This document shows positions 10,705-31,350 of a DNA stretch of 55,278 nt, in pieces. The DNA comes from a virus. The translations under genes and the position numbers were made by a program. Below the pieces are notes generated by a model. It was not told the origin of the DNA, searched no databases, and saw only the letters and a program-made list of their open reading frames with translations. Where the stretch lies: positions 1 to 55,278 of the IMG/VR virus record IMGVR_UViG_3300010392_005395. One strand, 5' to 3'. How positions within the stretch are numbered: position 1 is the first letter of the stretch; each line of letters begins with the position of its first letter.

Positions 10705-13700
10705 TTATGATCCTGCGCCGATGCGTTTCAACTCTTCAATAAAACCAATTGTATCATTATTATTGGGAAACACTCCACTTGCCGCCGAGCCGCCCATGTT
10801 GAAATTCAACGTAATAGTTTCACCAGAATTTGATGTAGCACCTACCATTCCGCCAGTATTAAATCGTTGAGGCATAATACCATTATTTAATGATTTGAAA
10901 AAATCAGATCCAAACTGTTGAACCACATTTTTCTTCATTACAAATTCGCCTGGAGTTAGAAGTGCTCTGACCGTATCTCCAAGTCCAGATCCTGGCACAG
11001 TTCCACCATCAGCAAATTTAAGTGAAGATGATTTAGCCTTGCTAGAATAGAAAAATTTAAAGTCGCTACCTAAAATTAAATTAATCTTTCTTGTAAATTC
11101 TCTTGCATAATCAACATCAGCTCTAGTTCTATTACGATAGTGTTTACTAGCATATCGTTTTACATAATCAATATAATCTCTAATTGTATTTGCATCGTTG
11201 TAATTTGTTTTTAACTCATCACTTTTACCTTGTGCTGCCTCTATTACATTTTTTGCAACATCTCTAACAATATAGGTATTACGACCTTTGTAATTTAAAT
11301 ATGTATCTTGAAGAGCTTCAATCATTTTACGATAAGTTTGCTCGAATTTAACTGCACCACCAGTTGCAAACTTCTGGACACCATTAACTAAACCACCAGT
11401 CGCAAATTTCTGGATATAATCTTTACCTTGATTCAGTTTATACATGAAATCTTCGCCGTATTTTTGTACAGCAGATTTACGCATAACAAATTCTCCTGGT
11501 TCCAATAAAGCTTTTACTTTATCACCAGAACCAGACCCAGGAACTTTATCTTTACGACGAATATATCCTCCTGAATTGTAACCATGAATTATTCCACCAG
11601 TTTGTCTTTTTTGAGGAGGTTTTCCTGTTTCTTCGTAGTTAACTTTTACTGTGACGGTTTGGTTTAGTTTTTTGATCCTGGTGTCCAGATCGTTAATTTT
11701 TACAACACCATCTTCAATATCAATATCTAAAGTATGTTTACCATCTAATGCATTGGTTAGATCAGTTATTTCTACATTTAATTTATGAATAGAGTTTTTT
11801 GTAGTATCAATTTGTTCAGCAATAGATTTGGCATTTTTCTTTTGAGCTTCTGCAAATTGCTTAGATGAATCACTTAATTGTTTATTTCCTTCTTCAACAA
11901 GTTTAAGAGCATCTTTTGATTTTCTTATCTCGTTGTTATAGGTAATGTAATCACCTTTATTTGCATCAGCTTGTTTTTTATAGAATTCAGCAAGTTCTTT
12001 TGACTCTTCTACTGCCTCTTTATTAAGACGTTTAGATTCCTCAAAATTGCCAGCTTCTTGTGCCTTTCTTGCTTCACCTAATTTTTTACGGATTTTGTAA
12101 TATTTTTTGGTAGCGTCTGCTTGTTGCTCATAACTTGCACGCTCATCACCAAATAGTTTTCTCTTGAAATCAACCGTATCCTTCAACGCATCAGCAGCTT
12201 CTTTTTCAGCACTTTTAGCATTTTTAACATACTTATCCAAATTGATTTTTTGTAAGTTTAATTTCTTAAATAAAAGTGACTTTTGTGCTTCAAGATGCGA
12301 GATATTTAACTTAGTTATTTCGCTGTTACTAATTTCAATAGATGCTTTAATTTTCGTCTGATGATCGATTAAGCGATTTAATTCCTTCTTATATTCCTCT
12401 TCTGTTAACTCTGTATTGCCGTTGAAATATTCAGTCTTTAACTGCTTCATTGCAGTATTATTTGCCAGATCCTCGTCTTGTAGTTTTTTGTTAGCTTCTT
12501 GGGATGCTTTAATTTTAGATTCGTTATGAGTGTTTAATCGTTCCAACTCTTCTTCAATGGATTTAACAGCTAACTCTTTTCTCAGTAATTCAGCATTAGC
12601 TTCCAACTGTTTAACAGCGGCCTCATACGCTTCTTTACTTCCAAGTTTATCAGCGAGCGCAACCTTTTCGATCTCAACATTCGCATCAATCAATTTAGAT
12701 TGCTCTTCCAATCGTGCTTCTGCTTTTTTTGCCTGTTCTTCTAATAGTTTGTTTGCTTCCTCAAAAGATTTTATTTTTTCATCATTTGTTTCTTTAATTT
12801 TTCCAATCTCTTTATCAAGCTGTCCCAATCTATTATTAACAGTATCCTGAAAAACTTTTTCAGATTTTTGCAAACTTGCAGCTAATTCTTCATCATCCAA
12901 AAGTCCAAAAAATGCAAACACTTCAGCAGCAGCTTTTTTAACTATCATAATTAAAAATGCAAAGAAGTTTCTTATTGGAGTAACATCAACACCTACTAAT
13001 TTTGCAAGTTCATATGCAAGGAATGCGAATAGGGCAGGTAAACCCGTTAATGCTCCACCGATAAATTTAAGAGCATTACCAACTTTACCTAAGAATCCAA
13101 CCTGAGCTATAGCACCTTTGTTTGCCAACGCTGTTGATGCAGCTAAAGCTTTTTGCGCCATTGCTAATTTTGCTGTAGCCGATGCTTGAGCACTTAATGC
13201 TGGTGTTAATTTTGCAACATTTTGTTGGTAAATATTAGTGTTACGAGTCAAAGCGGCTTGAACAATTGATGCCTGTCTTTGTAGCGCAATTAATTGCGCT
13301 TCTGTTGTAGCTTCCTGTCTTTGTGTAGCTATTAATGCTTGTTTTGATCTTAATTTCTCATAATTAATTCTATTAAGAGTTTGAGATTGTTTTATTTTTT
13401 CAACGGTTTGTTGTTTTTCACGAAGTGCAGCGTTAGCCAACGTGACTTGTAGTTTTTTAACAGTAACATCTTGTTCTAAATCAGCTTGAGTCTTACCTTT
13501 AACAGCTTTTGCATGTGCCAGTGTTGCTTTCATTGCAACAGCATGAGCCTTAGCTGACGCTAATAACGATTTAACCAATTTAACAGCTAACACCGATGCA
13601 ATAACTACAGCAACGGCTTGTAACTCGTTAACAATTTCTCTTAAATTATCAGCTAAAGTTTGAAATGGTTTAGCAATAGCACTATTACCATCCTTGAACT

Positions 13701-14433
13701 CCTGCAACATTGATAAAAATTCAGTTTTTACATTTTCAAAAGAACGACTAATTGTTAACGGAATAGCAGCAGCTTCTTTATTTAAAATTTCAAGCTGGGA
13801 AATTAAACCGTTGGATACTACATCAGCTGTCAACAATCCTTGCTTCGACATTGCACGAAGTTGACCAATAGTTACCCCAAGACTTTCAGCTAAAGCTCGA
13901 ATAATACGACCACCGTTTTCGGCGAGCGCATTGAATTCTTCACCCCTAAGAACACCTGACTGAATGGCTTGCGAGAATTGGCGGATTACAGATGCAGACT
14001 CTTGTGCAGAAGCACCTGATATCTTAAGTCCCTTAGATAAGACTTCCGTTAGTTGAATTGTTTGTTCGGTTGTACCACCAGCTTTTTTGATGGCTTCATT
14101 CAAACGAATAAACAAGATTGAATTGGCTTCAAGAGACGAACCAGTTTCAAGAGATACACGCTTTAATTCTGACTTTGCGTATGTAAATTCTTCGGTAGAA
14201 CTAGTTACCAAATCAATTTTAGAATCTAAATCTACTGCTTTGTCAGATAATTGTGCTAATCCAGTTATTAAGCCTGAACCAATATTTAATCCAACAAATC
14301 CTAGAAGGGTAGTTTGAACACGTCTAACCAACCGATCAAACGAGTTCAAATTATTTTGTGCAGAACGAAGACCACGTGTTGTGTTATCAACTGTATCAAT
14401 GATTATTTGCTGATTGATATTATTACTAGCCAT
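10705..14433 (-). CDS. tail tape measure protein
   Basis: About 1242 residues; sets tail length. I start at ATG 14433 (MASNNINQQ), which has AGGA 8 nt upstream. ATG 14469 has no SD and lies within the GT extension. The N-terminus matches the TMP_2 type (SGASAQESASVIRQFSQA, then LRGEEFNALAENGGRI). A hydrophobic stretch with several membrane-like segments lies near residues 460-510, and a long coiled coil runs over roughly 520-950. Near the C-terminus the unit GG-x-PGSGxGD-x-V-x-ALL-x-PGEFVMxK occurs twice, an internal duplication. The ATG overlaps the TAG stop of the G/GT frame. Confidence 0.9.
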   Translation of the reverse strand: MASNNINQQIIIDTVDNTTRGLRSAQNNLNSFDRLVRRVQTTLLGFVGLNIGSGLITGLAQLSDKAVDLDSKIDLVTSSTEEFTYAKSELKRVSLETGSSLEANSILFIRLNEAIKKAGGTTEQTIQLTEVLSKGLKISGASAQESASVIRQFSQAIQSGVLRGEEFNALAENGGRIIRALAESLGVTIGQLRAMSKQGLLTADVVSNGLISQLEILNKEAAAIPLTISRSFENVKTEFLSMLQEFKDGNSAIAKPFQTLADNLREIVNELQAVAVVIASVLAVKLVKSLLASAKAHAVAMKATLAHAKAVKGKTQADLEQDVTVKKLQVTLANAALREKQQTVEKIKQSQTLNRINYEKLRSKQALIATQRQEATTEAQLIALQRQASIVQAALTRNTNIYQQNVAKLTPALSAQASATAKLAMAQKALAASTALANKGAIAQVGFLGKVGNALKFIGGALTGLPALFAFLAYELAKLVGVDVTPIRNFFAFLIMIVKKAAAEVFAFFGLLDDEELAASLQKSEKVFQDTVNNRLGQLDKEIGKIKETNDEKIKSFEEANKLLEEQAKKAEARLEEQSKLIDANVEIEKVALADKLGSKEAYEAAVKQLEANAELLRKELAVKSIEEELERLNTHNESKIKASQEANKKLQDEDLANNTAMKQLKTEYFNGNTELTEEEYKKELNRLIDHQTKIKASIEISNSEITKLNISHLEAQKSLLFKKLNLQKINLDKYVKNAKSAEKEAADALKDTVDFKRKLFGDERASYEQQADATKKYYKIRKKLGEARKAQEAGNFEESKRLNKEAVEESKELAEFYKKQADANKGDYITYNNEIRKSKDALKLVEEGNKQLSDSSKQFAEAQKKNAKSIAEQIDTTKNSIHKLNVEITDLTNALDGKHTLDIDIEDGVVKINDLDTRIKKLNQTVTVKVNYEETGKPPQKRQTGGIIHGYNSGGYIRRKDKVPGSGSGDKVKALLEPGEFVMRKSAVQKYGEDFMYKLNQGKDYIQKFATGGLVNGVQKFATGGAVKFEQTYRKMIEALQDTYLNYKGRNTYIVRDVAKNVIEAAQGKSDELKTNYNDANTIRDYIDYVKRYASKHYRNRTRADVDYAREFTRKINLILGSDFKFFYSSKAKSSSLKFADGGTVPGSGLGDTVRALLTPGEFVMKKNVVQQFGSDFFKSLNNGIMPQRFNTGGMVGATSNSGETITLNFNMGGSAASGVFPNNNDTIGFIEELKRIGAGS
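10748..10789 (-). promoter_or_regulatory. candidate late promoter, copy 1 (before tail-tip genes)
   Basis: The minus strand carries CTCGGCGGCAAGTGGA (10789-10774), 20 nt, then TACAAT (10753-10748) preceded by TGA, which matches an extended -10. The element sits inside the tape measure coding sequence, so the 16-mer also codes for part of GSAASG. Its 16-mer and -10 are identical, at identical spacing, to copy 2 near 19781. Downstream are the tail-tip genes from 10701 leftward. Confidence 0.7.
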
Positions 14434-14895
14434 TTGATTCGTCCTGCGTGTTGTAGAATTCGAGGACATCTAGATAAAACGACCAGTTATAATCTAGTAC
14501 GTTGATATGTCCTCTATCGATAAGATTTGCTAATGTGAAATGAAAATTTTGTCTGAGCTTTACTGGGTCGATTTTGCTTGTTCTTGAGGTAGAACTTTGT
14601 CCAGATCGAACCGTCCCATCATTACTAAAAAACTTTCGTTTACCTCTTTAAAAGCAGGAATGATTTGCTCTAAGTCACTGAACCCAAGCTCGTCAATCTC
14701 ACCGTTTTCAACGTTTACGAAGTTTTTTGCTATATCAATAACCGTGTCGTATTTATCAATAATTAAAGTTTTCACATCTAAATTTTCGTCAGAAAAAACT
14801 TCGATCAAATTTGAAAATACGTTTTTGATATCACGAGGTGTCAATTCCTTGATCGTGATTTTTTGGTCATTGATAGTTATTGTTTTTTGTTTCAT
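14426..14895 (-). CDS. tail assembly chaperone fusion (GT), by -1 frameshift
   Basis: Ribosomes reading the short chaperone gene (14895-14560) can slip at T TTT TTA (14632-14626) and continue in the -1 frame to TAG at 14426. I checked 66 codons without a stop after the slip. The product is about 156 residues: 90 shared and 66 new. The new part contains LIDRGHINVLDYNWSFYLDV, much like the T domain of lambda-type GT proteins (hydrophobic and tryptophan-rich). In this family the fusion protein and the short form together load the tape measure protein during tail assembly. The extension overlaps the tape measure start, as in other siphophages. Confidence 0.8.
14560..14895 (-). CDS. tail assembly chaperone, short form (G)
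   Basis: 111 residues, mainly helical and acidic, between the tail tube and tape measure genes, where every lambda-like phage has its G gene. It begins MKQKTITINDQKITIKELTPRDIK, a compact N-terminus often seen in these chaperones. It is the zero-frame product; the longer GT product arises by -1 slippage within its 3' end. The SD-like AAGGAT lies upstream of the start. It is not a virion protein in the family and acts in the cytoplasm on the tape measure protein. Confidence 0.8.
   Translation of the reverse strand: MKQKTITINDQKITIKELTPRDIKNVFSNLIEVFSDENLDVKTLIIDKYDTVIDIAKNFVNVENGEIDELGFSDLEQIIPAFKEVNESFLVMMGRFDLDKVLPQEQAKSTQ
14626..14632 (-). other. programmed -1 frameshift site T TTT TTA
   Basis: In the zero frame of the chaperone gene the minus strand reads AGT TTT TTA GTA, which contains T_TTT_TTA, a canonical X_XXY_YYZ slippery heptamer. 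It lies 22 codons before the zero-frame stop, and the -1 frame is open from there to 14426. Any stimulatory structure downstream was not assessed. Confidence 0.8.
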
Positions 14896-14960
14896 TAGGG
14901 TATATCCTTACTTGACATGAATGAGATAATTGGGGGAATGTTTATTCCCCCGTAAGTGGT

Positions 14961-15710
14961 TTATGAATAAGCTAAATCAGTTTGAACTTCGTAACTGTTA
15001 GATTTGCCAGACGGTGTATTTAACGTTCCGTTTAATTCTAAAGTTGCAAAATCTTCAGAAAGAAAGTCAACACCAGTTTGTGGGGTTAAAACAGCTTCCC
15101 AAACATCAACTAAAACATTACTTTGGTCGGCAAAGTTTTCACCGTCTAATTTCAAAGCGACTTTAATAGAAGAGTTGGTTCCGCCTGATATTTTGTTACC
15201 AGCGATGGTTGCGTAGTCGTAAGAGATATGTAATACATCATCTTCTGAAATAGATCCGCCTGATAATGGTTTAACAAAACCAAGATCAGCATTAACAATT
15301 TCGTAGTCTGTATTCTCAACATAAGTGGTAGTGTCAGTAACATCTTTAACGACAACACTAGTAACTTTACGATTTGCTAATTCAAAAGATTTGTCTAATT
15401 TAGCAGTCTGTGCTTCAGAAGTTACTGATCCGCCCGTTACAGATACAGAACTAACATCACCTAAAAATAATAGCGCTAAGTTATCTTTATCAAGATCGTC
15501 TAAAGCAATAGCTACTTCAGGAGGCTGCTTGATAGCAACTGAATCAAGAACTTGACCATAAGTCCCTTTGATTTTTGATTTACGCTCTTTGATTTCAGCG
15601 TTTTCTTTGATTTCAAATTTAGTAGCGTTTCCGAATGGAAGCCAGTTTTGGCTAACACCTCCAACTACACGGTTAAAGTATAATTTACCAGATCCTAAAA
15701 ATCCGCTCAT
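14961..15710 (-). CDS. major tail (tube) protein
   Basis: 249 residues, just upstream of the tail chaperone. The opening (MSGFLGSGKLYFNRVVGG, then FGNATKFEIKENAEIKERKS) and the central PPEVAIALDDLDKDNLALLFLG fit tail tube proteins of lambda-like siphophages. A later segment (TTTYVENTDYEIVNADLGFV) resembles a small inserted beta domain common in this family. Hundreds of copies would form the tail tube. Its SD GGAG (minus strand 15721-15718, 7 nt before ATG) is embedded in a strong stem (15718-15768), so translation may be controlled. Confidence 0.8.
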   Translation of the reverse strand: MSGFLGSGKLYFNRVVGGVSQNWLPFGNATKFEIKENAEIKERKSKIKGTYGQVLDSVAIKQPPEVAIALDDLDKDNLALLFLGDVSSVSVTGGSVTSEAQTAKLDKSFELANRKVTSVVVKDVTDTTTYVENTDYEIVNADLGFVKPLSGGSISEDDVLHISYDYATIAGNKISGGTNSSIKVALKLDGENFADQSNVLVDVWEAVLTPQTGVDFLSEDFATLELNGTLNTPSGKSNSYEVQTDLAYS

Positions 15711-15717
15711 AATAATT

Positions 15718-15768
15718 CTCCAATTAAAACAGTTAATTAATTAACTAGCTTCTTGCTTTAAATTGGAG
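15718..15768 (-). promoter_or_regulatory. SD-sequestering RNA hairpin before the tail tube gene
   Basis: On the plus strand CTCCAATTAAAA (15718-15729) and TTTAAATTGGAG (15757-15768) are inverted repeats pairing at 11 of 12 positions. In the minus-strand mRNA the 3' arm contains the GGAG SD of the tail tube gene, so the stem would hide it. The enclosed loop holds the perfect 16-bp palindrome AGTTAATTAATTAACT (15731-15746). No T-tract follows the stem, so it is not a simple terminator. Confidence 0.65.
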
Positions 15769-15803
15769 TGCGAATCTTTGCACCCATCATCGATGACTAA
15801 GTA

Positions 15804-15959
15804 CTAATTTTTAGGATCAGAGTCCTTTAGCAACTTAATTTTTACATCTTTGTCAGCATCAACACTGACAAGAACTTTATTTGTTTTATTTTTTACGATA
15901 GTAATTTTACTATCACCGATCATGAAAGAATGACCGACTTTTAATTCTGTGAAAAACAT
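15804..15959 (-). CDS. CsrA-like small protein
   Basis: 51 residues: MFFTELKVGHSFMIGDSKIT, then IVKNKTNKVLVSVDADKDVK, ending in a charged tail. The pattern VGxxxMIGDxxxT...NxVxVxVDAxKDV matches the CsrA/RsmA fold. The usual N-terminal LTRR is replaced by FTELK and the HREE segment is absent, so classical GGA RNA-binding residues are only partly kept. Its ATG overlaps the TAA of the upstream gene (TAATG), indicating coupled translation. Downstream lies a hairpin holding the tail tube SD. It may bind RNA, or it may be a structural protein that only resembles CsrA. Confidence 0.6.
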   Translation of the reverse strand: MFFTELKVGHSFMIGDSKITIVKNKTNKVLVSVDADKDVKIKLLKDSDPKN

Positions 15960-16141
15960 TAGACAATATCCCTAACTTTCATGAAGTTAATATCGTCGTC
16001 ACTGGCTTTTAATTCATCCAAAACAGTACCTGCTGGAAATAATTTACCTGCGTGAGTATGTTCTTTTTTAAGTTTTAAAACTTCAACGACAGCTTCTATA
16101 GTGTCATCTATTTCAAGTGTTTTAGATTTTCTATTTCTCAT
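15959..16141 (-). CDS. small conserved phage protein, DUF7210-like
   Basis: 60 residues with the pattern VLKLKKEHTHAGKLFPAGTV, then DDINFMKVRDIV. Small proteins with a xHTHAGxxYxxGxxI motif are frequent among head-tail connector and tail genes of siphophages; the function is unknown. Its stop overlaps the start of the CsrA-like gene, and it starts 8 nt after the tail terminator gene. The SD-like AGAGG precedes the start codon. Confidence 0.5.
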   Translation of the reverse strand: MRNRKSKTLEIDDTIEAVVEVLKLKKEHTHAGKLFPAGTVLDELKASDDDINFMKVRDIV

Positions 16142-16149
16142 AATAACCT

Positions 16150-16590
16150 CTATATAATTGCTTCGACTTGATACATTGATGGAAGAAAAGCTAAATCATT
16201 TTCAAATTCAGGAGCATTAAAATCACGCTCATCACTAACCATCATTAATTTTGTATAGTTATTACTTAAACGATTGCCCTTTAATTTATTTGCAATTTCA
16301 ATTAATTTATAACCACCATGTACTCTGTACAATTCTCTTGGACAAACAACAGATATACGCCAAAACATTTTTATTTTTTGTTGGTTATTTTTTGCAACTA
16401 TAGGATCAGCTTTAAAACCACCATTAACAACTAATATTCCAATTTTATCCTCGTCAACAGTATGTTGGGTGAACGATTCATTATCTAAGTCTTGAGCATT
16501 TTCAGCTGTAAAAATCATCCCTGGTTGAACTAAATTATCTAGCTCTTCTACTAATAACTCTTCAAATTCATATATATTTGAGATACCCAT
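16150..16590 (-). CDS. tail terminator / completion protein (gpU-like)
   Basis: 146 residues, directly after the minor tail Z-like gene and before the tail tube gene, where lambda U sits. The sequence is mixed alpha/beta with VDEDKIGILVVNGG, then KMFWRISVVCPRELYRVHGGYK, and a helix-strand end LPSMYQVEAII. In the family such proteins cap the tail tube and join it to the head. The assignment rests on gene order and general composition; sequence similarity to gpU itself is not obvious. Confidence 0.5.
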   Translation of the reverse strand: MGISNIYEFEELLVEELDNLVQPGMIFTAENAQDLDNESFTQHTVDEDKIGILVVNGGFKADPIVAKNNQQKIKMFWRISVVCPRELYRVHGGYKLIEIANKLKGNRLSNNYTKLMMVSDERDFNAPEFENDLAFLPSMYQVEAII

Positions 16591-17106
16591 TTACCTACGA
16601 CCTCTAGCTAATTCCTTTGCAATTTCACTTTTTAAAACTTCTGTAATTCTGTTTCTTTTTTGATTAACTTTTCTATCAACAATAGAACTTGCGTGATCTA
16701 AAGGAATTTTTTGCTCAACAAGTTTTCCATTAACACGTTTAAATACGCCTTTAAAACCTGTCCCTTTCAATTTAAAACCATTTCTAAAAAATGTATCACC
16801 AACTTTAATTCCATCTTTTAATTGCCGATGAAACTTTCCATAATGTGCAGATACAGAATTTTCACCAATCCACGTTACCGCTTTACCTCTACGACCACGT
16901 GCTTTAGCAAGCTTTTTTCTTGCTCTAACTCTTTTAAAACCACCAATTTTAATCTTATGTTTAACTGCGATTTCTTTACCGATTTCGTTACGATATTCAC
17001 GAGTAATTTTATTAGCAGTATTACGAATTGCACGACGAACCTGTCGAGGTAATAAATTTAATGTTTGGATTCGTCTTAAACGACCATCATATGTAACTCG
17101 AATCAT
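16591..17106 (-). CDS. minor tail protein Z-like
   Basis: 171 residues, very basic. The N-terminal half reads LLPRQVRRAIRNTANKITRE, then a lysine/arginine-rich segment (RVRARKKLAKARGRRGKA). The middle has WIGENSVSAHYGKFH, and a helical end follows (ITEVLKSEIAKELARGRR). This matches lambda minor tail protein Z and related head-tail joining proteins. Its start overlaps the stop of the connector gene by 4 nt, and its end abuts the tail terminator gene. Confidence 0.7.
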   Translation of the reverse strand: MIRVTYDGRLRRIQTLNLLPRQVRRAIRNTANKITREYRNEIGKEIAVKHKIKIGGFKRVRARKKLAKARGRRGKAVTWIGENSVSAHYGKFHRQLKDGIKVGDTFFRNGFKLKGTGFKGVFKRVNGKLVEQKIPLDHASSIVDRKVNQKRNRITEVLKSEIAKELARGRR

Positions 17107-17408
17107 AATTTTGACCGTAAAATGATTATTGTTTTACCAACATCGCCAGGCTGTTTTGATTCATAAGAATAAGTCGTGTTGTTGAATTTAACTTTAATAT
17201 TCTTTTTGAAAAGTGATGAAAGTTCATCATTAACTTCTACGGTCGGATATTTGATATCAATCTCGCCGCCTAGTTCATCGCTCATAAATTCGAAATCAAA
17301 AACACCCCGAATTGGTGTTACATTTCCGCTTGTGTCGATTACCTCGATATCATCACCAAGTACATCTAAAACATCATCATCAGGAAAATCTAATGAAAAA
17401 CTAGCCAT
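17103..17408 (-). CDS. head-tail attachment protein (FII-like)
   Basis: 101 residues: MASFSLDFPDDDVLDVLGDD, then GVFDFEFMSDELGG, and a C-terminal beta segment GDVGKTIIILRSKL. An acidic N-terminal helix followed by a small beta-barrel half fits head-tail attachment proteins of the lambda FII type. Its position just before the Z-like gene supports this. It overlaps the endolysin gene by 8 nt at its 5' end and the Z-like gene by 4 nt at its 3' end. Confidence 0.6.
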   Translation of the reverse strand: MASFSLDFPDDDVLDVLGDDIEVIDTSGNVTPIRGVFDFEFMSDELGGEIDIKYPTVEVNDELSSLFKKNIKVKFNNTTYSYESKQPGDVGKTIIILRSKL

Positions 17409-17805
17409 TAAAATATTCCTCAGGATTAAAATATTCTTTGTTGCGCTTTATTTCATAATGCACATGATTTGGAATGCCTTTATAACGTTTATCAAGATTT
17501 TGAGCTGAACCAATAACCTGATTTTCTTCCACAACATCACCAACAAAAACAGATGGATTTACATAAAAAACTCTATGTTTAAAACCCGCATTATCAGTTA
17601 TTTGGATATATCTATAACTCAAATCATTAGAGTAAGGAAAACCGACTTTTGTTACGGTTCCAGACACTGGTGATAAAACCAATGCATATTTATTAATTAA
17701 ATAATCAATACCATTATGTGTGCGACTACCACGAGAAGCACCGAAATAGCCACATCCCCAATTATCACACTCACGTTTTTTTAAATTACAAATTGTATTA
17801 ATCAT
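17401..17805 (-). CDS. M23-family peptidoglycan endopeptidase (endolysin)
   Basis: 134 residues. M23 zinc-peptidase motifs are visible: H30xxxD34 in RTHNGIDYL and H114xH116 in NHVHYEI. The fold elements SPVSGTVTKVG and GDVVEENQVIG are typical of LytM/M23 domains. There is no signal peptide, so release through a holin is expected. It would cleave peptide cross-links of the cell wall at lysis or serve as a virion-associated lysin. It follows a coiled-coil membrane protein that may be the holin, and overlaps both neighbours by 8 nt. Confidence 0.85.
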   Translation of the reverse strand: MINTICNLKKRECDNWGCGYFGASRGSRTHNGIDYLINKYALVLSPVSGTVTKVGFPYSNDLSYRYIQITDNAGFKHRVFYVNPSVFVGDVVEENQVIGSAQNLDKRYKGIPNHVHYEIKRNKEYFNPEEYFNG

Positions 17806-18418
17806 CTTTTAGTTTCGTCGTTTTCAGAATGTTTTTTTTAGCAACCAATGACATTGCATTCTTTTCGCTTCGCATTGTGTTTTTCCTAATATCTTCTTTT
17901 AAATCTGTATAAACAAAACCAGCAGCTGAACTAATAACACCCCAAATAATAATGGCAACAGTCCAGATCATTTTTAAATGTGCCTTACCTTTACCTTCAA
18001 TCTCTTTTTTCATTGAATCAACCATTTCATTATGGCTCACTTCACATTTAAGCTTGTGTTCTGCTATATCCTTTTTATTTTCACGAACAAGTGAGAATAG
18101 GGGATTAACGGCTTTTTGAATTTCCTCATGTTGCTTTAATAACAATCCAGACATATCAATTTTGATCTGATTAACATTGTTATCAATTGCATCTAATGTT
18201 GAAGTTGTTTTGGCTTCATCTTTAAAATGATTATTCAGAGAATGTGTCAATTTAGAAATTGATTTGTCAGTTTCAATTTGTTGTTTAGATAATTCACCTA
18301 AAGTGCCTGTAAGGCTTGCAACAGATTTAGTTAAATTTTTTAAATCATTTTTATAATCATTATGATCACGCTTAAGCATTTCATGATCTCTAATTAAATC
18401 ATCGATTCTATCTGGCAT
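17798..18418 (-). CDS. coiled-coil membrane protein, holin candidate
   Basis: 206 residues. The first 130 or so are charged and heptad-like (DLIRDHEMLKRDHNDYKNDL), predicting a long coiled coil. A single hydrophobic segment, MIWTVAIIIWGVISSAAGF, is near residues 149-167, followed by a basic tail. One membrane span directly before the endolysin gene is compatible with a holin or XhlA-like lysis accessory protein. It could also be a spanin-like or exclusion protein. The gene overlaps the endolysin start. Confidence 0.55.
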   Translation of the reverse strand: MPDRIDDLIRDHEMLKRDHNDYKNDLKNLTKSVASLTGTLGELSKQQIETDKSISKLTHSLNNHFKDEAKTTSTLDAIDNNVNQIKIDMSGLLLKQHEEIQKAVNPLFSLVRENKKDIAEHKLKCEVSHNEMVDSMKKEIEGKGKAHLKMIWTVAIIIWGVISSAAGFVYTDLKEDIRKNTMRSEKNAMSLVAKKNILKTTKLKDD

Positions 18419-18430
18419 TATTAAATCCTT

Positions 18431-19681: not shown

Positions 19682-19754
19682 TCTTTTATCCAAATTTACA
19701 AAATGAATGTAAAATAATTCTTGTCTTTAAGGTTAACTTGACGTAATATGTATA

Positions 19755-19796
19755 ATTGTATCACTGTATGCCTTGTGTATTCCACTTGCCGCCGAG
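19755..19796 (-). promoter_or_regulatory. candidate late promoter, copy 2 (before lysis and tail genes)
   Basis: The minus strand shows CTCGGCGGCAAGTGGA (19796-19781), 20 nt, then TGA-TACAAT (19760-19755). The element is intergenic (19682-19820), and the next gene is the lipoprotein starting at 19681. The 16-mer, spacing and -10 are the same as in copy 1 near 10774. The intergenic position argues that it is a real control site, with the lysis genes and the connector/tail genes downstream. Confidence 0.75.
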
Positions 19797-19820
19797 CGCT
19801 TGAAATAACCTCGTTTTGTA

Positions 19821-21867: not shown

Positions 21868-21868
21868 T

Positions 21869-22111: not shown

Positions 22112-22112
22112 T

Positions 22113-23150: not shown

Positions 23151-23164
23151 TTTGTAAAATCCTC

Positions 23165-23581: not shown

Positions 23582-23586
23582 TGTGA

Positions 23587-23976
23587 TTACCTCACAATTT
23601 CATCATAAGCAGTAAAACGACCTCTTAGTAATCGCTTCGTATCGCCGTTTGAGAAGTAAATTTCTAAACCGTAATATCCATTATTCCAAGTGAATGCAGT
23701 TGAATCTTCATCAGAAACGTAAAGTTCAATTTCACCTAGATTATTATTTAATGTGATTCGACCATTTTCAGTCGTCATGTCATAAAGTTCTGTAGTTCCG
23801 ACTTGGCTATATTCGTTTAAATCTTTAACTAATAAACGAGCCGTACAACCGCTTAAATCCACTGGAACTTCTGAACCTTTATTGCCAGATTTCCACGTGA
23901 AAGCGTGTCGAAGAGTAGATCCTTTATCCACTTCAATATCTAATTCTTTTGATTGTCTAGCGATTTTGGCAGGCAT
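23587..23976 (-). CDS. BppU-like N-terminal domain protein (virion-side fibre adaptor)
   Basis: 129 residues. The pattern DIEVDKGSTLRHAFTWKSGN, then VDLSGCTARLLVKDL and TENGRITLNNNLGEIELYVS is that of BppU-type N-terminal beta domains that anchor receptor-binding subunits to the baseplate. It ends LLRGRFTAYDEIVR. It is the first gene of the fibre cassette and follows the major capsid gene. Its function as an adaptor is inferred from the family; it may instead decorate the head because of its position next to the capsid gene. Confidence 0.55.
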   Translation of the reverse strand: MPAKIARQSKELDIEVDKGSTLRHAFTWKSGNKGSEVPVDLSGCTARLLVKDLNEYSQVGTTELYDMTTENGRITLNNNLGEIELYVSDEDSTAFTWNNGYYGLEIYFSNGDTKRLLRGRFTAYDEIVR

Positions 23977-24043
23977 GATAAAACTCGTAAAAATTAATAT
24001 TGAAAAAGACTGGGCAGGTCGTTAGACCCACCCATAGGTTGTG

Positions 24044-25039
24044 TTACTTGGTTAATTTGATGATTGCATCAGGACGAGTACAAATAGTGATTGGGTTAGA
24101 TTGGGATTCCAATTCAACACCTTTATTCATACGCAATATTTCTTGCTTTGAGTAATAAGGGCGACCCAAAGTGTTAACAGTTTCCATATAATCTGCAGGA
24201 GCAAATTTAGTTAGAAACATATCCATAACACCTTCAGGAACTAAATAAGCATCATCAACACCAACAAAGTCGATTCCATCAACCTTTCCAACATAACGCT
24301 CCCATTTAACACCACCAAAAGAGAAAGCGTTGCGTGGATCTTGACGTAAGAATTCGCCTTCTAACCAGCGGTCATATGATTTTTCAACATTGTCATGAGA
24401 CATGAATTCTTCCCAAAAAGACTCACCAGCAAGAACTCTATAACCAGAAGGTGCTAAACCACCTAAAACGTTTTCAACCTTTTTCATAGCTGATAAAATT
24501 TTAGTTTTTAATTTAGTACTAGCAGTTGCAAGTGACATAACTTGAGTTTGTTGGGTCAAACCGAAAGTATTGAACATATCCATTAGTACAGTAGAACCGT
24601 CAGCATCTAAAACTTGGCCTTTGATAGCACCAATACGTTGGAATTCTAAAGTCACGTCCATACGATTACGCATTTTTTCCAAACGCTCGTTTACAATACT
24701 TTGAACCAACTGAGTCTCACTTTCTTCGCCGAATGCACGAACGTTTTGTACTTCGTCAGCCATGATAGTTGCATTGTCTTGCAAGTGAACGGAAGGGAAC
24801 GCAACCATAGTTCGCTTGTCACCATTGACAACATTACCAGGAGCACCACGTTGTGAGCTTGGTACTAAATTAAGAGACAATCCTTTTCTTTCAATCGAGA
24901 TTGAAGTAGTTGAGATCCCTTTTTCGTCGAAATATCCCAATTGCCCGATACGACCAGGCTTGTAAGGGGTATCATTGATAGCGTCAGTCAAACTCTGAAC
25001 TGTAAACGCATTATCATTAAAAATATCTAAAGATGGCAT
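24044..25039 (-). CDS. major capsid protein (gpE family)
   Basis: 331 residues, following a gpD-like decoration gene. It matches lambda E-type capsid proteins: IGQLGYFDEKGISTTSISIE, LNLVPSSQRGAPGN, and later APADYMETVNTLGRPYYSK near the C-terminus. Length is usual for the family (about 340). It forms the icosahedral shell. No N-terminal prodomain is obvious; the protease and scaffold come from the upstream S49 gene. Confidence 0.9.
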   Translation of the reverse strand: MPSLDIFNDNAFTVQSLTDAINDTPYKPGRIGQLGYFDEKGISTTSISIERKGLSLNLVPSSQRGAPGNVVNGDKRTMVAFPSVHLQDNATIMADEVQNVRAFGEESETQLVQSIVNERLEKMRNRMDVTLEFQRIGAIKGQVLDADGSTVLMDMFNTFGLTQQTQVMSLATASTKLKTKILSAMKKVENVLGGLAPSGYRVLAGESFWEEFMSHDNVEKSYDRWLEGEFLRQDPRNAFSFGGVKWERYVGKVDGIDFVGVDDAYLVPEGVMDMFLTKFAPADYMETVNTLGRPYYSKQEILRMNKGVELESQSNPITICTRPDAIIKLTK

Positions 25040-25068
25040 TTTATTATCCTCTATTAATTGTTAATCGA

Positions 25069-25407
25069 TTATCTGATTTTGATTTTCAAAGCTTCTAAAT
25101 CAGCAGTTCCATTTGCATCGTTACCAACCAACAGGTCGCCAGATACTTCGGCGTTACCATTGATAATGACACCCTCAGCATCAGCAGCACTTGCGTCAAC
25201 ATCTGCTAATATAATTCCAGCAGCAGTTTCAGTTCCGTCCGATGCACCATCTGCATATGCAGCGTATTTACCATCAGCAGTGATTTTTCCGATCACAGTT
25301 CCAGCAGTTAAATTTTGACCACTAGCTACTGTGATCTGATCTCTAGACTGAGTTCCATTTGCTTCGGAAAGCAAAAATTCAGCTTTATAATTACCTTCAG
25401 TTAACAT
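25069..25407 (-). CDS. head decoration protein (gpD family)
   Basis: 112 residues with the family core LTEGNYKAEFLLSEANGTQSR, then GQNLTAGTVIGKITADGKYAAY and VIINGNAEVSGDLL. It sits between the S49 protease and the major capsid gene, as in lambda. Trimers of this protein would stabilise the expanded head. A clear SD lies upstream in the 23-nt gap after the protease gene. Confidence 0.85.
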   Translation of the reverse strand: MLTEGNYKAEFLLSEANGTQSRDQITVASGQNLTAGTVIGKITADGKYAAYADGASDGTETAAGIILADVDASAADAEGVIINGNAEVSGDLLVGNDANGTADLEALKIKIR

Positions 25408-25430
25408 TTTCAGTTACCTCTTAATTAAGA

Positions 25431-26789
25431 TTAAATGTTGCATTGCGCTTTGCGTTTTGCATAAATGTCGCTATAGTGCGAGCTTGATTTAGCATTGCTA
25501 TTCACGACAGCAACACTTGTGGAACTCTCGATTTCAACGTTTTCGTTGCTCGTTAATTCCAAAACTTTTTCTCTGATTTGCTCGATTTGAAGCTCTTCTT
25601 CAATAAACTTTTGAGCTTGTGCAGGTACGTCAGCAGCCATACAGATTGCATTAACTTCTGTAACGTATTCTTTGAACTGTTCGGATTCTTTCTTGACTTG
25701 TTCTTGTTCTTCTTTGATTAGATTTAAAATTTCTTGAATAGTATCTTTGTCCAGATCTTCTAAACGTGATTTGATTAAATTTGTTTCGTTATTTTCTAAG
25801 GCTTGTTCTGCAATCTCAGACTTAGGAGTTTTCTCTAATGAAACAAAAGATTTTTCAACTTCTAAATCGATACCTTCTTTTTCATCAAGTAAACTGAATT
25901 CAGCATCTTCGATTTCATCTAAATCATTTGAAAGCAAGCTGGATAAAAGCTCATCGAATGTTCCCAATTTATGAGCAAAACCGACTTTAATTGCTTCTTC
26001 GCCGTGAAATGTTCCTGCCTCAGTTGCTTTTACGTCATCAATACTTAACCCTAAATTTCTGGCTACTGTTGCAGTAAAAATATTGTATAGACGGTCAACT
26101 TCATTCTGTTGCTCAATTCGTCCTTCTTCGCTCAATGGCTCATTTGGATTTCCTTGAACTTTCTTATTGCCAGCATAGACATATTCGATTTTTACACCAG
26201 CTTTTGCATTAGCCTCCGACTGATCAACGTGATAACTAACAACACCAACTGAGCCAACACCACCTGTACGAGTTACCCAAATTTCTTCAAATGCAGAAGC
26301 AATTCCATATGCTGCGGAGTAGGCCATATCATCAACCATCGCAATCAACTTTGTACCTTGACCACGAGAGGAAAAAATGAAATCAGATAAATCCATATTC
26401 TGTGCAGCCATTCCGCCAGGAGAATCGATTCTTGCAACAACTGTATGAATTTCTTCGTTTATTAATAAATCAGAAATTTCAGCTTTTAATCCTTCATAAC
26501 TGACAGGGGATTGGCCGCATGGAGTCGCTTCTTCACGTGCTACTAAAGCACCAGAAATATCCAAAACAGCAATTCCATCTTGCATAAAAGTGCCACTTGA
26601 CATATTATCCATGATGGGAGAAAGCATGTCAGAACTTTTAAAAAGTTCAAAATAAGATCTAACAACACTCTCACCTAGTTCAGGATGAACAAATAATGGT
26701 TGAGACATTTTTGAATATAAATTAGCTACTGCAAAACTGTCTGGATTTTTATCAAACAATCTACGCAGCATCTTCAAAGGGTTCTTCAT
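25431..26789 (-). CDS. S49-family head maturation protease with scaffold domain
   Basis: About 452 residues from ATG 26789 (MKNPLKMLRRL), which has GGAG 6 nt upstream; the open frame begins at 26801. The N-terminal half has SppA/S49 features: VVARIDSPGGMAAQN, then DDMAYSAAYGIASA (probable nucleophile Ser) and TGGVGSVGVVSYHVD. The C-terminal half is acidic and helical (LEDLDKDTIQEILNLIKEEQ), the usual scaffold region of lambda C/Nu3-type genes. It would cleave portal or scaffold during prohead maturation. It overlaps the portal gene by about 29 nt. Confidence 0.85.
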   Translation of the reverse strand: MKNPLKMLRRLFDKNPDSFAVANLYSKMSQPLFVHPELGESVVRSYFELFKSSDMLSPIMDNMSSGTFMQDGIAVLDISGALVAREEATPCGQSPVSYEGLKAEISDLLINEEIHTVVARIDSPGGMAAQNMDLSDFIFSSRGQGTKLIAMVDDMAYSAAYGIASAFEEIWVTRTGGVGSVGVVSYHVDQSEANAKAGVKIEYVYAGNKKVQGNPNEPLSEEGRIEQQNEVDRLYNIFTATVARNLGLSIDDVKATEAGTFHGEEAIKVGFAHKLGTFDELLSSLLSNDLDEIEDAEFSLLDEKEGIDLEVEKSFVSLEKTPKSEIAEQALENNETNLIKSRLEDLDKDTIQEILNLIKEEQEQVKKESEQFKEYVTEVNAICMAADVPAQAQKFIEEELQIEQIREKVLELTSNENVEIESSTSVAVVNSNAKSSSHYSDIYAKRKAQCNI

Positions 26790-28266
26790 TCGTTTCTCCA
26801 TAATTTAAACCAAGTTCTTCTTCACGCTGCAAATCTTCTGCACGCTGTCTATCAATTTCTTCAACAGATTCTCTTCGTGTCTCATCTACAACTCGTTGTC
26901 TAGAAGTTAAACCAGCATTTATTTCTAAAATTTTTGCTTCAATATCTTGCGTTGGATGAATATGCTTCCAAGATTGAGGTCTATGTAAACAACGCAAATA
27001 ATCAAATTTATTTGTTTTATATGATTCTGGTGGTTGAACTACTCCAGCTAAAATTGCTCGTTTAACAAATGCATTCCACATCAATCTGCAAATTTGAGCG
27101 ATTACAAATAAATCTTGAACTTGCTCAACTTCACGCTGATACTGATTCATAATGGCACGCCACAAACGATCATTGATTTCAGTGTAATCACCACTCATCA
27201 ATTGGTACGGGACATTCCAGCCAGCTGCAATGCCAAGTAGCTGATAATGTTGATAATCTTTATATCCTCTACCTGCGTCATCACCTTCAAATAGGGTAAC
27301 ATCTTCACCAGGTAGTAAATTTGGAAACGTACCAGTTTCCATTTCAATCATTGGTACTTCTGAATCGTCCTTACTTATTGGCTCACCAGAAATTGGATCA
27401 AATTTATAGTCTTGCTCTCCATACTCTGGTCTGCGAATAACACCAGTAAAATGTGCTCTTGATTCTTTTCTACCTAACTCTGCATCATCATACTTATCAA
27501 ATACATATGCTCGAACCATTGATTGAGTTCCACTAGGCTCACCACGTAACTGACCTGGACGATTTGGTATAAAATGATGAAGCATATCCGATGCTGGAAT
27601 ACGAATTAAGTCGTGAATACTTACACTTTCATCAGAGGGATGTTTTGGATAAATATGGTAAGCAACAACTCGACCATACTTGTTTACTTCAATACCTGAA
27701 ACTATTTTGTAGCCGTTTTTTAATTCTTTATTAAATCCGACAGGACAAAATTCAGACTCTAAAACTTGAAACTGTAAGGGAACTGGCAAATCTTCTGCAT
27801 TTCTACGACGAATAATTCTAATAAATGCTTCGCCAGATTCTTTTCTTGCTCGTGATGCCTGCCATTGGATTCCGTACACGCCTAAATTTGAATTAATATC
27901 AGCAAAATGGATGTAATCATTCCACAAATCTAAAATTTCTTTATTAAATCTGTCATCAGATGTAGTAGGTCGTGGAACAATTCCAGTACCAATCTCATTT
28001 GCTACATCTGCTTTTAATGCACGTGCTACCCACGGATTATTTCTAATTGCTGAACGATTACGTCTCTGTAAAAGTTCAAGCTCTGTGGTAATCGCATTGG
28101 TAGGTGAAAGAGAAGGGGAGTCCCACCCACCAAGACGACGGCCATTAGAAGAGGCTTCATATGCACGCTGATCAGCGCTCTTTTTAACAGGTTTAATTGC
28201 ACGTGTAGAGTGTCGCTTAATAAGCTGTTTAGCAGATTGTTTAATTTTTCTATTATTACGTGCCAC
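26761..28266 (-). CDS. portal protein (lambda gpB family)
   Basis: 501 residues. The opening has a basic tail (KRHSTRAIKPVKKSADQ), then RRLGGWDSPSLSPTNAI and LLQRRNRSAIRNNPWVARAL, as in lambda-type portals. Later motifs ARKESGEAFIRIIRRR and PYQLMSGDYTEINDRLWRAI are characteristic. The C-terminus is helical and charged (RQRAEDLQREEELG). Twelve copies would form the DNA channel that binds terminase and the connector. It starts directly after the gpW-like gene. Confidence 0.9.
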   Translation of the reverse strand: MARNNRKIKQSAKQLIKRHSTRAIKPVKKSADQRAYEASSNGRRLGGWDSPSLSPTNAITTELELLQRRNRSAIRNNPWVARALKADVANEIGTGIVPRPTTSDDRFNKEILDLWNDYIHFADINSNLGVYGIQWQASRARKESGEAFIRIIRRRNAEDLPVPLQFQVLESEFCPVGFNKELKNGYKIVSGIEVNKYGRVVAYHIYPKHPSDESVSIHDLIRIPASDMLHHFIPNRPGQLRGEPSGTQSMVRAYVFDKYDDAELGRKESRAHFTGVIRRPEYGEQDYKFDPISGEPISKDDSEVPMIEMETGTFPNLLPGEDVTLFEGDDAGRGYKDYQHYQLLGIAAGWNVPYQLMSGDYTEINDRLWRAIMNQYQREVEQVQDLFVIAQICRLMWNAFVKRAILAGVVQPPESYKTNKFDYLRCLHRPQSWKHIHPTQDIEAKILEINAGLTSRQRVVDETRRESVEEIDRQRAEDLQREEELGLNYGETNEEPFEDAA

Positions 28267-28476
28267 TTATAAACCTTTTGATGTTCTTGATCTATAGGCA
28301 GATGGTCGTCTTACTACTGCTGTAGTTTTTGCAACATCTGCTTTAATAAAGTCACGAGCTTTTATCATTTGCTCAATAGAATGATATTCAACTTCACGTT
28401 GACCCAAACGAACCTTACGCTGGCCTGATGCCATAGCTTTTTCAATATTGTCTAAATCCGTTTGTGTCCAAGCCAT
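28267..28476 (-). CDS. gpW-like head-tail joining protein
   Basis: 69 residues: MAWTQTDLDNIEKAMASGQR, then KVRLGQREVEYHSIEQMIKA and a basic tail. This is the compact alpha/beta pattern of lambda gpW, which joins the portal to the tail-side proteins after packaging. Its position between TerL and portal is the standard one. It starts 2 nt after the TerL stop and ends where the portal gene begins. Confidence 0.85.
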   Translation of the reverse strand: MAWTQTDLDNIEKAMASGQRKVRLGQREVEYHSIEQMIKARDFIKADVAKTTAVVRRPSAYRSRTSKGL

Positions 28477-28478
28477 GT

Positions 28479-30605
28479 TTATCGTTTCATTCTCATTCGT
28501 GGTCGTCTATGTACAACTGCATTGCTTTGTTTTGCAGCTGTTTCAAATTTGTTTATATCGCTAACCTCAGAATTGTTATCCCATTTTTCAGCCCATGCTG
28601 GGGGAGAATCCCAATTGATATCACTACGCCAATAATCATCCATAAGTATTAGGTACGCAGATTTTGCGTAACAAAGGAGGTCGAAACTTTCGTTTCTTGA
28701 GCGTGATTTATTTTCCCAACCTTTCTCTGTCCTGATTTCTGCAACAAGTTCCTTATAAAAAAACTCTTGCAACCAGGAAGGAAAGTGGATATAATCCTTT
28801 CCAGGGGAGGTGCGCTTGAGGTTTGCATTTACTGCATCTTTGACTATTGTAGTATTTACTAAAAATAAGTTCAACTTGCCGCCGACATTTGCTTTTCTTG
28901 CTGCTTTTGATGATTTATCCAATAAGGTCTTATAAATCATTGGTTTATTCGCTTTTCGATCTGGACGCTCACCTTTCAACAGATCAAACTTTTTTTGCAA
29001 CCCAATATCTTTGCATCTTTTCCAAAATTGATAGGCATTTTCTGTAACACCTTCTTTACCACCAGAATCACATACTGTTTTAATAATTCCCATTTCTCGA
29101 CCGCTATCATCATCAAGCTCGTATCGTTTGTTAATAACCTGATCGATTAAAACATCCCAGTCCTCTTTAAATGCAGCAGGATCTAGTAATGCTTTTTCTC
29201 CGTGACGATCACGATCCGATAAAACGATATCAAATCGATCAACAATCCAACTTTCTAAAAAACGACCAAAACCTTGAACTTGAACAACAAATTTATTTGC
29301 TTGAACATCAACTGATGCTATTAGAAATTTGACACCATGAGGTACTTTTCTTTTTGGTAAATCTTCTGCACGAGCCATTAAATCTTCTGCTGTCATTGAT
29401 TCAGCAGCTGCAAAAGGAATGTATGGGATGCCCTGATCGGTATTTCGAGTGGCTTTGAGTTTTTCTTCTTCTCCAGTTTGGTGGAAGTGTTTTAATGCCA
29501 GAAATTCTTTTTCAAGTAGTGATTCCCAAGTTTGAAATTTTGCTGCTGTACCAGATAACCAAAAAGAAGCAACAGATGATGGATTACAAGTTTCTGGCAA
29601 CCATAAACCATTTAGATTCATCTCGTTTTTATGACGATGTTCTAAAATACATCCACATTTTGGACACGCAATATCAGCTAGTTCAATAGCCGCTTTTTTA
29701 GGAGATGTAACTAGAATTTGATCAATTAATTCTTCATATTGAGGAAGATTGAATAAATCTAATCCAGGAATAAGTGGAAATTCATCACTACAATCTGGAC
29801 AATTCCAGTGCCATATTCTTTTGTCTCCTGTGTTGTATAGGCCAAGAATTCCGCCTACTGGCGGTGCTTCAAAAGGTGAACTTGGTCTCCAATTAACATC
29901 AAGAAAATCTCGTCCAGGTGAGCTTTCAACTACACACATACCACCAGACATAAATGTTTGAGTACGCTTTAGTGCTTGAGGATAGATTTCACCTTCACCA
30001 TTGTCATCTGGCATACGGTCATAATCACTTACAAAAACGTACTTATAATCTTGAGCTGATAACTGTGTTGGACTTGGATATCCAATCATCAACGCAGTTC
30101 CATTTCTAAATAATTTTTGTAATAAATTATTATCGTTTGATGAAGCAGAAAGCATTTTTCGAAGATTTGGTGAATTGTCAATCATTCTACCAACACGCAA
30201 TTTTGAATATTTTCTAGCAGCTTCCTCAGTCATGTGAACGACTAATACATCAGACGGATCAGATGACATTACATAACCAATACCACCGTCAATTAGTCCC
30301 TGAGTTTTCCCTGTACGAGCAGGACCAACAAAAATTACAGTTGTATGCTGACGTGAAGAAAGCATATCCATCGGTTCAACCATATAAGGCGTTTGACTAC
30401 CAGCCCAATTTCCTGAAAAACCACCTGGAGTTGCTATGACAACATTCTCTTCAACAGCATTTGAAACACGAATTCGTCGTGGAGGTTCAAAAATTGACCC
30501 AACATCTTTTACTAATTCTTTAGCAAAAATAGGTTCGATATCTTCAAAATAATTTGTTCGTGACATTCCTGTTCTGGCTGGTCCTATGATTTCTGCTGCA
30601 TTCAT
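28479..30605 (-). CDS. terminase large subunit (GpA family)
   Basis: About 708 residues. ATG 30605 (MNAAEIIGP) has AGGTG 6 nt upstream; ATG 30611 would be too close to that SD. Walker A GPARTGKT is near residue 95, and the Walker-B-like YVFVSDYDRMPDD near residue 190. Two CxxC pairs (CPDC, CPKCGC) suggest a zinc site, and GIIKTVCDSGGKEG lies in the nuclease half. GpA-type enzymes cut cos ends and drive DNA packaging. The ATG overlaps the TerS stop. A variant late promoter lies inside its 3' third. Confidence 0.92.
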   Translation of the reverse strand: MNAAEIIGPARTGMSRTNYFEDIEPIFAKELVKDVGSIFEPPRRIRVSNAVEENVVIATPGGFSGNWAGSQTPYMVEPMDMLSSRQHTTVIFVGPARTGKTQGLIDGGIGYVMSSDPSDVLVVHMTEEAARKYSKLRVGRMIDNSPNLRKMLSASSNDNNLLQKLFRNGTALMIGYPSPTQLSAQDYKYVFVSDYDRMPDDNGEGEIYPQALKRTQTFMSGGMCVVESSPGRDFLDVNWRPSSPFEAPPVGGILGLYNTGDKRIWHWNCPDCSDEFPLIPGLDLFNLPQYEELIDQILVTSPKKAAIELADIACPKCGCILEHRHKNEMNLNGLWLPETCNPSSVASFWLSGTAAKFQTWESLLEKEFLALKHFHQTGEEEKLKATRNTDQGIPYIPFAAAESMTAEDLMARAEDLPKRKVPHGVKFLIASVDVQANKFVVQVQGFGRFLESWIVDRFDIVLSDRDRHGEKALLDPAAFKEDWDVLIDQVINKRYELDDDSGREMGIIKTVCDSGGKEGVTENAYQFWKRCKDIGLQKKFDLLKGERPDRKANKPMIYKTLLDKSSKAARKANVGGKLNLFLVNTTIVKDAVNANLKRTSPGKDYIHFPSWLQEFFYKELVAEIRTEKGWENKSRSRNESFDLLCYAKSAYLILMDDYWRSDINWDSPPAWAEKWDNNSEVSDINKFETAAKQSNAVVHRRPRMRMKR
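28846..28886 (-). promoter_or_regulatory. candidate late promoter, copy 4 (inside TerL)
   Basis: The minus strand carries GTCGGCGGCAAGTTGA (28886-28871), matching the 16-mer consensus at 14 of 16 positions, then 19 nt and TACAAT (28851-28846). TTGAAC here resembles a -35. The core also codes for part of the GGKLN segment in TerL, so chance cannot be excluded. The -10 at family spacing supports it. It would drive the gpW, portal and capsid genes. Confidence 0.5.
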
Positions 30606-31177
30606 CACCATTCACCTCGTTTGTCAATTTCATTTGTTGTTGGTGATAATTCAGATAAATCACGTGCTAATTGACTTCTTGCTCTATCAATCAAATCAAT
30701 TAATTTAGAAATATCATCCGAACCAATAATTCCATCCCGTTCCAATGCATCTGGCAAGGTGTCAAGGGTAAGTGCCACTTTCTTAAATCCATCAGCTAAT
30801 GCAAATTCAACCTCTTCTGCTGGAATTAAAAGACGAGATTCTTGTGCATTTTTTCTTTGCTTTAATAATGTTGATTGTTTTAAATCCTCGGCCTTGTAAT
30901 AGTTCACACGATCAAACGGTTTCATTTTCGCTGGATCTTCAGGAACATTGTCACCGTCAGACTTAGTTGACTCAGGAGGAACATATGGATCACGAACATC
31001 GTTTAGTGTTGCAATATCTTTTAAATCCCAATAATCACTCCTACCAATTTTTCCAGCAGCAGGAGATTTCCCCAACATTTTTGTAATCGTTGGTCGAGAT
31101 ATTCCAAACGCTTCTGAAAGCTGAGTAATATTGAAATGTGATTTCTTTTGAGAGTTTGTATGAGATTTAGTGGTCAT
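30605..31177 (-). CDS. terminase small subunit (Nu1/DUF1441-like)
   Basis: 190 residues. The N-terminal winged-helix part reads FNITQLSEAFGISRPTITKM, then LGKSPAAGKIGRSDYWDLKDIA, which matches Nu1/DUF1441 packaging proteins. The remainder is helical (DRVNYYKAEDLKQSTLLKQR). It would recognise the cos/pac region and guide TerL. There is no clear SD before ATG 31177. It is the first gene downstream of the candidate late promoter at 31211-31251, and its stop overlaps the TerL start. Confidence 0.85.
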   Translation of the reverse strand: MTTKSHTNSQKKSHFNITQLSEAFGISRPTITKMLGKSPAAGKIGRSDYWDLKDIATLNDVRDPYVPPESTKSDGDNVPEDPAKMKPFDRVNYYKAEDLKQSTLLKQRKNAQESRLLIPAEEVEFALADGFKKVALTLDTLPDALERDGIIGSDDISKLIDLIDRARSQLARDLSELSPTTNEIDKRGEW

Positions 31178-31210
31178 TTAGCTATATATAGATATACATA
31201 TGTAAATATT

Positions 31211-31251
31211 ATAATATACAATGTGCTATGTTCTGTCCACTTGCCGCCGAG
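31211..31251 (-). promoter_or_regulatory. candidate late promoter, copy 3 (before terminase)
   Basis: The minus strand carries CTCGGCGGCAAGTGGA (31251-31236), 19 nt, then TATTAT (31216-31211). A -35-like TGGACA spans the last four bases of the 16-mer and the next two, 17 nt before the -10. The site is intergenic and points at TerS 34 nt downstream. It is the expected place for the first late promoter. Confidence 0.75.
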
Positions 31252-31285: not shown

Positions 31286-31350
31286 TTCGAAAAATTTGTC
31301 GAAAAGCGGGAGCCGCCTTGCCCGTTCCGTCTCTATAAAGCGTCAGGAGC
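31286..31350 (-). other. candidate cos/packaging region
   Basis: A GC-rich island (GCGGGAGCCGCCTTGCCCGT, about 31306-31325) stands out in AT-rich DNA just upstream of the terminase genes. CGGG and CCCG flank its centre as a dyad, and TTCGA/TCGAA arms lie at 31286-31303. Lambda-type GpA terminases cut at cos near the small-subunit gene. Position and composition are seen; cutting is inferred and no cleavage point is proposed. Confidence 0.35.

Follow-up and report, generated by a model that had tools for sequence, protein, structure and literature searches.

Four copies of a 16-mer box with a -10-like hexamer at near-constant spacing suggest an activator-dependent late regulon in an uncultured temperate siphophage

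The 55,278-nucleotide (nt) stretch of viral DNA analyzed here (IMG/VR record IMGVR_UViG_3300010392_005395, positions 1 to 55,278; hereafter the window; GC = 33%) appears from its gene content to be a temperate siphophage, with a phrog_15 terminase, an Ig-like major tail protein, a tape measure protein, an integrase and an excisionase. Its late genes run leftward, from the terminase small subunit gene TerS (31177) to position 522. A 16-mer, CTCGGCGGCAAGTGGA, referred to below as the box, occurs four times on this strand, each time followed by a -10-like hexamer. The four sites are probably activator-dependent sigma70 promoters of a single late regulon, comparable to those under P2 Ogr, Mu C or P1 Lpa.

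The box is exact at 10774-10789 (copy 1), 19781-19796 (copy 2) and 31236-31251 (copy 3) and carries two mismatches at 28871-28886 (copy 4), always on the minus, late strand. A 12-base core, TCGGCGGCAAGT, is unbroken in all four copies. Dinucleotide shuffling of the window gave 0.08 expected matches to the 16-mer with up to 3 mismatches, and the repeat is thus far beyond chance. In the rest of the window, matches to the core carry at least 2 mismatches, and none within 2 mismatches has a -10-like hexamer at the right place. The hexamer 3' of the box is TACAAT for copies 1 (10753-10748) and 2 (19760-19755), after a gap of 20 nt; it is TATTAT for copy 3 (31216-31211) and TACAAT for copy 4 (28851-28846), after 19 nt. 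On the late strand, hexamers within one mismatch of TATAAT have a frequency of 0.98% per position, and TACAAT one of 0.055%. The probability of a -10-like hexamer within one 2-nt spacing window at 4/4 sites is about 1.4e-7, or about 1.4e-6 if ten windows are allowed. A motif-blind search, which took any 14-mer repeated with up to 2 mismatches and then required a -10-like hexamer at consistent spacing, returned the box group on the late strand; of the four-member groups shown, all others consist of low-complexity AT DNA. When the four sites were aligned on the box, they had little in common beyond TCGGCGGCAAGTkGA; when aligned on the -10, little beyond TAyaAT. An earlier note on this DNA had listed the copies with their hexamers and spacings and had judged such a repeat unlikely by chance; the coordinates all check out on recount, and the shuffling bears out the judgment.

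The end of the box coincides with a weak -35. Its 3' end (TKGANN) contributes the last four box bases to a -35-like hexamer completed by two more, so that the box spans about -48 to -32, given the -10 assignments. Copy 3 occupies the intergenic DNA that separates a cos-like site from TerS, at about -47 to -32 from a predicted start near 31204, which itself precedes the TerS ATG by 27 nt (TerS, 30605-31177, minus strand; phrog_141, Pfam DUF1441). Its -35-like TGGACA (31234-31239) lies 17 nt from the -10 and scores 10/12 matches in a mechanical sigma70 scan; overlapping alternative -10 registers, TATATT and TATAAT, are also present. Copy 4, GTCGGCGGCAAGTTGA, falls in the 3' part of the terminase large subunit gene TerL (codons 576-580), with a -35-like TTGAAC (28869-28874; 17-nt spacer; 9/12 matches in the same scan) and a predicted start near 28839, ahead of the 28267-28476 gene and the portal, protease and major capsid genes. 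Copy 2 is intergenic, upstream of a lipoprotein/lysis block and the head-tail genes, with a -35-like TGGAAT (19784-19779), an 18-nt spacer and a predicted start near 19748. Copy 1 precedes the tail-tip genes and falls within the 3' end of the tape measure gene, 70-85 nt short of the gene end and about 70 nt from the start codon that follows; its -35-like TGGAGT (10777-10772) and 18-nt spacer lead to a predicted start near 10741, which leaves 40 nt to the ATG at 10701. The two sites with 18-nt spacers (copies 1 and 2) carry an extended -10, TGATACAAT (TGA-TACAAT), and the two with 17-nt spacers (copies 3 and 4) do not. Because the sigma70 scan found promoter-like sites no more numerous than in its shuffles, it supports the register of copies 3 and 4 only, and not their function. 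Two copies are thus intergenic, before TerS and before the lysis genes, and two lie inside TerL and the tape measure gene, as had been described earlier. Intergenic DNA makes up only 4% of the late region, yet it holds two of the four copies.

One box therefore recurs where several late operons start, oriented like the late genes, with a sigma70-type -10 at 19-20 nt in 4/4 cases. According to the model that we propose, a putative phage-encoded activator would bind the asymmetric box in a class-II-like manner and help host RNA polymerase to start at the TACAAT or TATTAT -10. The copy 3 promoter, just downstream of cos, would serve TerS-TerL; the copy 4 promoter would serve portal, protease and capsid; the copy 2 promoter, lysis and head-tail genes; and the copy 1 promoter, the tail-tip genes. 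Promoter activity, its timing and its dependence on an activator are what we infer for these sites. The earlier note had left the choice between a dedicated activator and a dedicated sigma factor. Since the -10 is sigma70-like and the box end forms a weak -35 at 17-18 nt, host RNA polymerase with a class-II-like activator is the simpler solution; the first half of that proposal is retained, and the second is unneeded, no sigma gene having been recognized among the proteins scanned. A variant of the sigma proposal is that the box takes the place of the -35 and serves a phage sigma factor, or a factor that appropriates sigma as T4 MotA/AsiA do, with no classical activator beside sigma70 region 4. 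An asymmetric box with a good sigma70 -10 retained is indeed what T4 middle promoters display. The gap between box and -10 is 19-20 nt, however, versus 12 +/- 1 for MotA, the box lies upstream of, and overlaps, a recognizable weak -35 with a 17-18 nt spacer, and homologues of sigma factors, MotA or AsiA were not recognized among the proteins scanned; we consider this variant unlikely. The overlap with the -35 is also where a repressor would block polymerase, and the box might then be an operator through which a prophage repressor shuts off, in the lysogen, late promoters that would otherwise be constitutive. Such a role is harder still to credit, as the box is asymmetric and shows no dyad, the -35s are weak, and the box is missing from the divergent early region at about 41 kb, the expected place of action of a lysogeny repressor.

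The two copies within genes offer evidence of another kind for the proposed promoters. In the tape measure gene (10705-14469, minus strand) copy 1 is read as C-TCG-GCG-GCA-AGT-GGA, and in TerL (28479-30611, minus strand; phrog_15) copy 4 is read as GTC-GGC-GGC-AAG-TTG-A. A protein-domain repeat as the source of the box was rejected, the two copies being in different frames and encoding different peptides. The codons under the boxes are rare for this phage (TCG 4%, GCG 7%, GTC 7.5% and GGC 13%), and the probability of the synonymous choices is 6e-5 for copy 1 and 4e-5 for copy 4. TerL was also compared with eight relatives (L005-L012; 60-66% identity), which define 199 invariant columns. It departs from these at 14/199 (7%) overall and at 3/7 under the stretch from box to -10 (P581N, W583F and L585V; hypergeometric P = 0.008), and a fourth change, L590V, lies just past this stretch. 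Together, the differing frames, the rare codons and the changes of invariant TerL residues exactly under the predicted promoter argue for selection on the box at the DNA level. The sequence ACTACAAT is also present in L006 and L007 through codon choice, so that coding sequence already in place could have supplied the -10.

The proposed regulon is further supported by an intrinsic terminator (AGGGGCTTAATTGCCCCT-TTTTT, 31758-31775, minus strand), which separates the late genes from the leftward middle genes and cuts the former off from upstream transcription; the late genes hence need either their own promoter or antitermination. The 16-mer could in principle act in RNA, as a boxB- or put-like antitermination hairpin spaced along one long late transcript, and TCGGC-GGCAA-GTKGA could fold into a 5-bp stem capped by a 5-nt loop, a geometry like that of lambda boxB. 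The stem, however, has a G-G mismatch in 3/4 copies, plus G-U pairs; folding z-scores range from -0.55 to +0.97, no better than shuffles; no common boxA-like sequence lies upstream of the four boxes; and the fixed spacing to the -10 would be left unexplained. An Rfam search returned nothing but a tRNA. We regard an RNA element as very unlikely. As regards antitermination of the lambda Q type as the sole late control, a Q homologue was not seen among the proteins scanned, and four promoter-like sites are present. A regulon rather than a single antiterminated late promoter, as had been put forward at the outset, is the best-supported reading, on the strength of the repeat, the -10 spacing, the motif-blind recovery, the promoter anatomy and the TerL deviation.

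A cosN-like sequence, GGGCAAGGCGGCTCCCG (31307-31323, minus strand, within a cos-like site at 31290-31323), precedes copy 3 by about 56 nt and is kept in relatives L006-L010. Two contigs, L007 and L009, have GGGCAAGGCGGCTCCCG as their very first sequence, which suggests cohesive virion ends at this position; L006, L008 and L010 conserve it along with the GACAAATTTTT-like block that follows. The block kept next to cosN in relatives resembles CGACAAATTTTTCG. The location of copy 3 between the cosN-like site and TerS would suit a terminase or packaging site, that is, a cosB R-type element with dispersed extra copies. Three of the four copies, however, lie 2.4-20 kb from cos, the -10 spacing would again be unexplained, and the relatives conserve cosN and the adjacent block without the 16-mer. 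Because these cos-keeping relatives lack it, a cosB role is the least probable of the explanations that we weighed. In the vicinity of this site, the approximately 400 nt between the terminator and cos (31340-31757, minus strand) are low-complexity DNA without a convincing gene, and tandem 24-nt repeats (TTCACCTAGAACGGTGTATATACG) were observed upstream of the terminase genes of relative L006 (L006:391-510).

The box was then sought outside the window. In the fragments of TerL relatives L005-L012 the box is absent, as is any repeated box particular to these relatives. In viral_contigs, TCGGCGGCAAGTGGA alone gave, among the matches listed, singletons, mostly on GC-rich contigs, none with a correctly spaced -10 (at most one mismatch from TATAAT). 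A search for TCGGCGGCAAGTGGA plus -10 gave one antisense coding match (L204) and one unrelated pair in a coding gene of another phage (L229/L230). The box was absent from 369 genomes searched from the class of a gammaproteobacterial relative, and TerL relatives in the genome scan reached at most 43% identity. The earlier suggestion to look for the 16-mer and its -10 in related prophages brought no match, the box being absent from five genomes with such prophages. No comparable repeated promoter was found in Curvibacter phage PCA1, LR797314, Psychrobacter phage Y8A or Marinobacter phage AS1.

Several points weigh against the proposed regulon. The four sites are a small sample, and no close relative carries the box, so that there is no cross-phage footprint. 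The gene next to copy 4 begins about 360 nt downstream. The cluster of TerL deviations is weaker once corrected for scanning (51/1000 shuffles) and hence counts as support, not proof. Finally, for the activator gene there are candidates only.

These candidates were examined by gene position, family searches and structure models. The TerL, major capsid, major tail, tail-tip and DNA polymerase genes of phage PCA1 resemble those of the window phage, and the two share a similar gene plan. In PCA1, the gene that follows the primase and precedes TerS encodes a Mor/C-family late transcriptional activator (UZZ64568; phrog_836, 9e-23), a point in favor of the proposed regulon. The Mor/C family (phrog_836, phrog_532) was not matched by any window protein that was scanned. 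The same locus in the window encodes a 99-amino-acid protein (36631-36930, minus strand), which appears to be a helix-turn-helix (HTH) protein unrelated to the PCA1 activator and is a candidate for either the activator or a lysogeny repressor. Family searches with it gave no hits, and its structure model is all-helical at low confidence. A TTGACA-17-TAAGAT promoter (36967-36939) precedes the gene; its start would make the message almost leaderless, so that a lysogeny repressor also fits. The gene that had been named earlier as one candidate (43881-44228, plus strand) is a weak one: it belongs to the early rightward (replication) operon, its HTH hits are all sub-threshold, and a search for relatives found none. 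Its model, also of low confidence, has an N-terminal HTH-like trio of helices. The models of the two HTH candidates (pLDDT, a per-residue confidence score, of 44 and 58) were too poor for a fold search. Further options are a small HTH repressor-like gene (278-490, plus strand; phrog_6223, repressor), which follows a tRNA-Ser gene, and a 191-amino-acid protein at 40294-40869. We tentatively suggest, as a possibility that falls short of an even chance, that the activator, which could be the orphan HTH-like 36631-36930 protein, belongs to a family so far without a link to late transcription in phages; it would replace the Mor/C type at the same locus and read the asymmetric 15-16-bp box overlapping the weak -35.

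The remainder of the window shows the following organization. A stop codon coincides with its right end and a tRNA-Ser(GCT) gene lies at its left end (69-161, plus strand), as in a trimmed provirus; the tRNA gene is a likely attachment site. Replication genes run rightward from 41185. Upstream of TerS, four small proteins of unknown function (31867-32265, 33892-34278, 35376-35687 and 35656-35997, minus strand) may be diverged copies of one another, with 17-27% identity. A perfect sigma70 consensus, TTGACA-18-TATAAT (34335-34364, minus strand), stands ahead of the second of these genes. Two pairs of direct repeats of about 58 nt, with 88-90% identity (32532-32589 / 33522-33579 and 51825-51883 / 52864-52922), both sit near gene ends or starts and possibly stem from local gene duplication.

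Four near-identical boxes and a few candidate regulators give an experimentally cheap handle on late-gene control in an uncultured branch of temperate siphophages. The comparison with PCA1 suggests that phages exchange the late activator at one locus, with a Mor/C type in PCA1 and another type in the window phage, and that promoters are rebuilt to match the new activator, even at the cost of conserved terminase residues. Promoters buried in coding DNA can thus be exposed by repeats within one genome combined with breaks in protein conservation, without close relatives.

Among known late-control systems, that of Mu rests on sites of a dyad form that is typical of C. Mu has four late promoters (lys, I, P and mom) driven by C (PMC4461284). 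The window phage resembles it in having four predicted late promoters with one activator site at or upstream of the -35, and differs in that no Mor/C homologue was recognized in the window and the box has no C-type dyad. In P2, four late operons are under Ogr promoters with the box TGT-N12-ACA (PMC3931495). The likeness to P2 and 186 (Ogr/B) lies in a temperate phage with four late operons, a common activator box and host RNA polymerase; the P2 box, however, is a dyad, whereas the window phage has a GC-rich 16-mer that is asymmetric and overlaps the -35. The four sites do not share a TGT-N12-ACA, and no zinc-finger Ogr was recognized in the window. P1 has eleven late promoters with a 9-bp inverted repeat read by Lpa (PMC10695390). 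Dispersed late promoters with a common box for one phage activator, putative in the window phage, are shared with P1; the inverted repeat is not, and no Lpa homologue was recognized in the window. In T4, the -35 of middle promoters is replaced by a MotA box, which is centered at -30 and separated from the -10 by 12 +/- 1 nt; TGn is present in about half of these promoters (PMC2988021). An asymmetric box, a sigma70 -10 and TGn at some sites recall these promoters, but the box is another one, its distance is 19-20 rather than 12 nt, the genes are late rather than middle, and MotA/AsiA were not recognized. Since neither the box nor an activator homologue of P2, Mu or P1 was found, the window system belongs to none of these three, though it would work like them.

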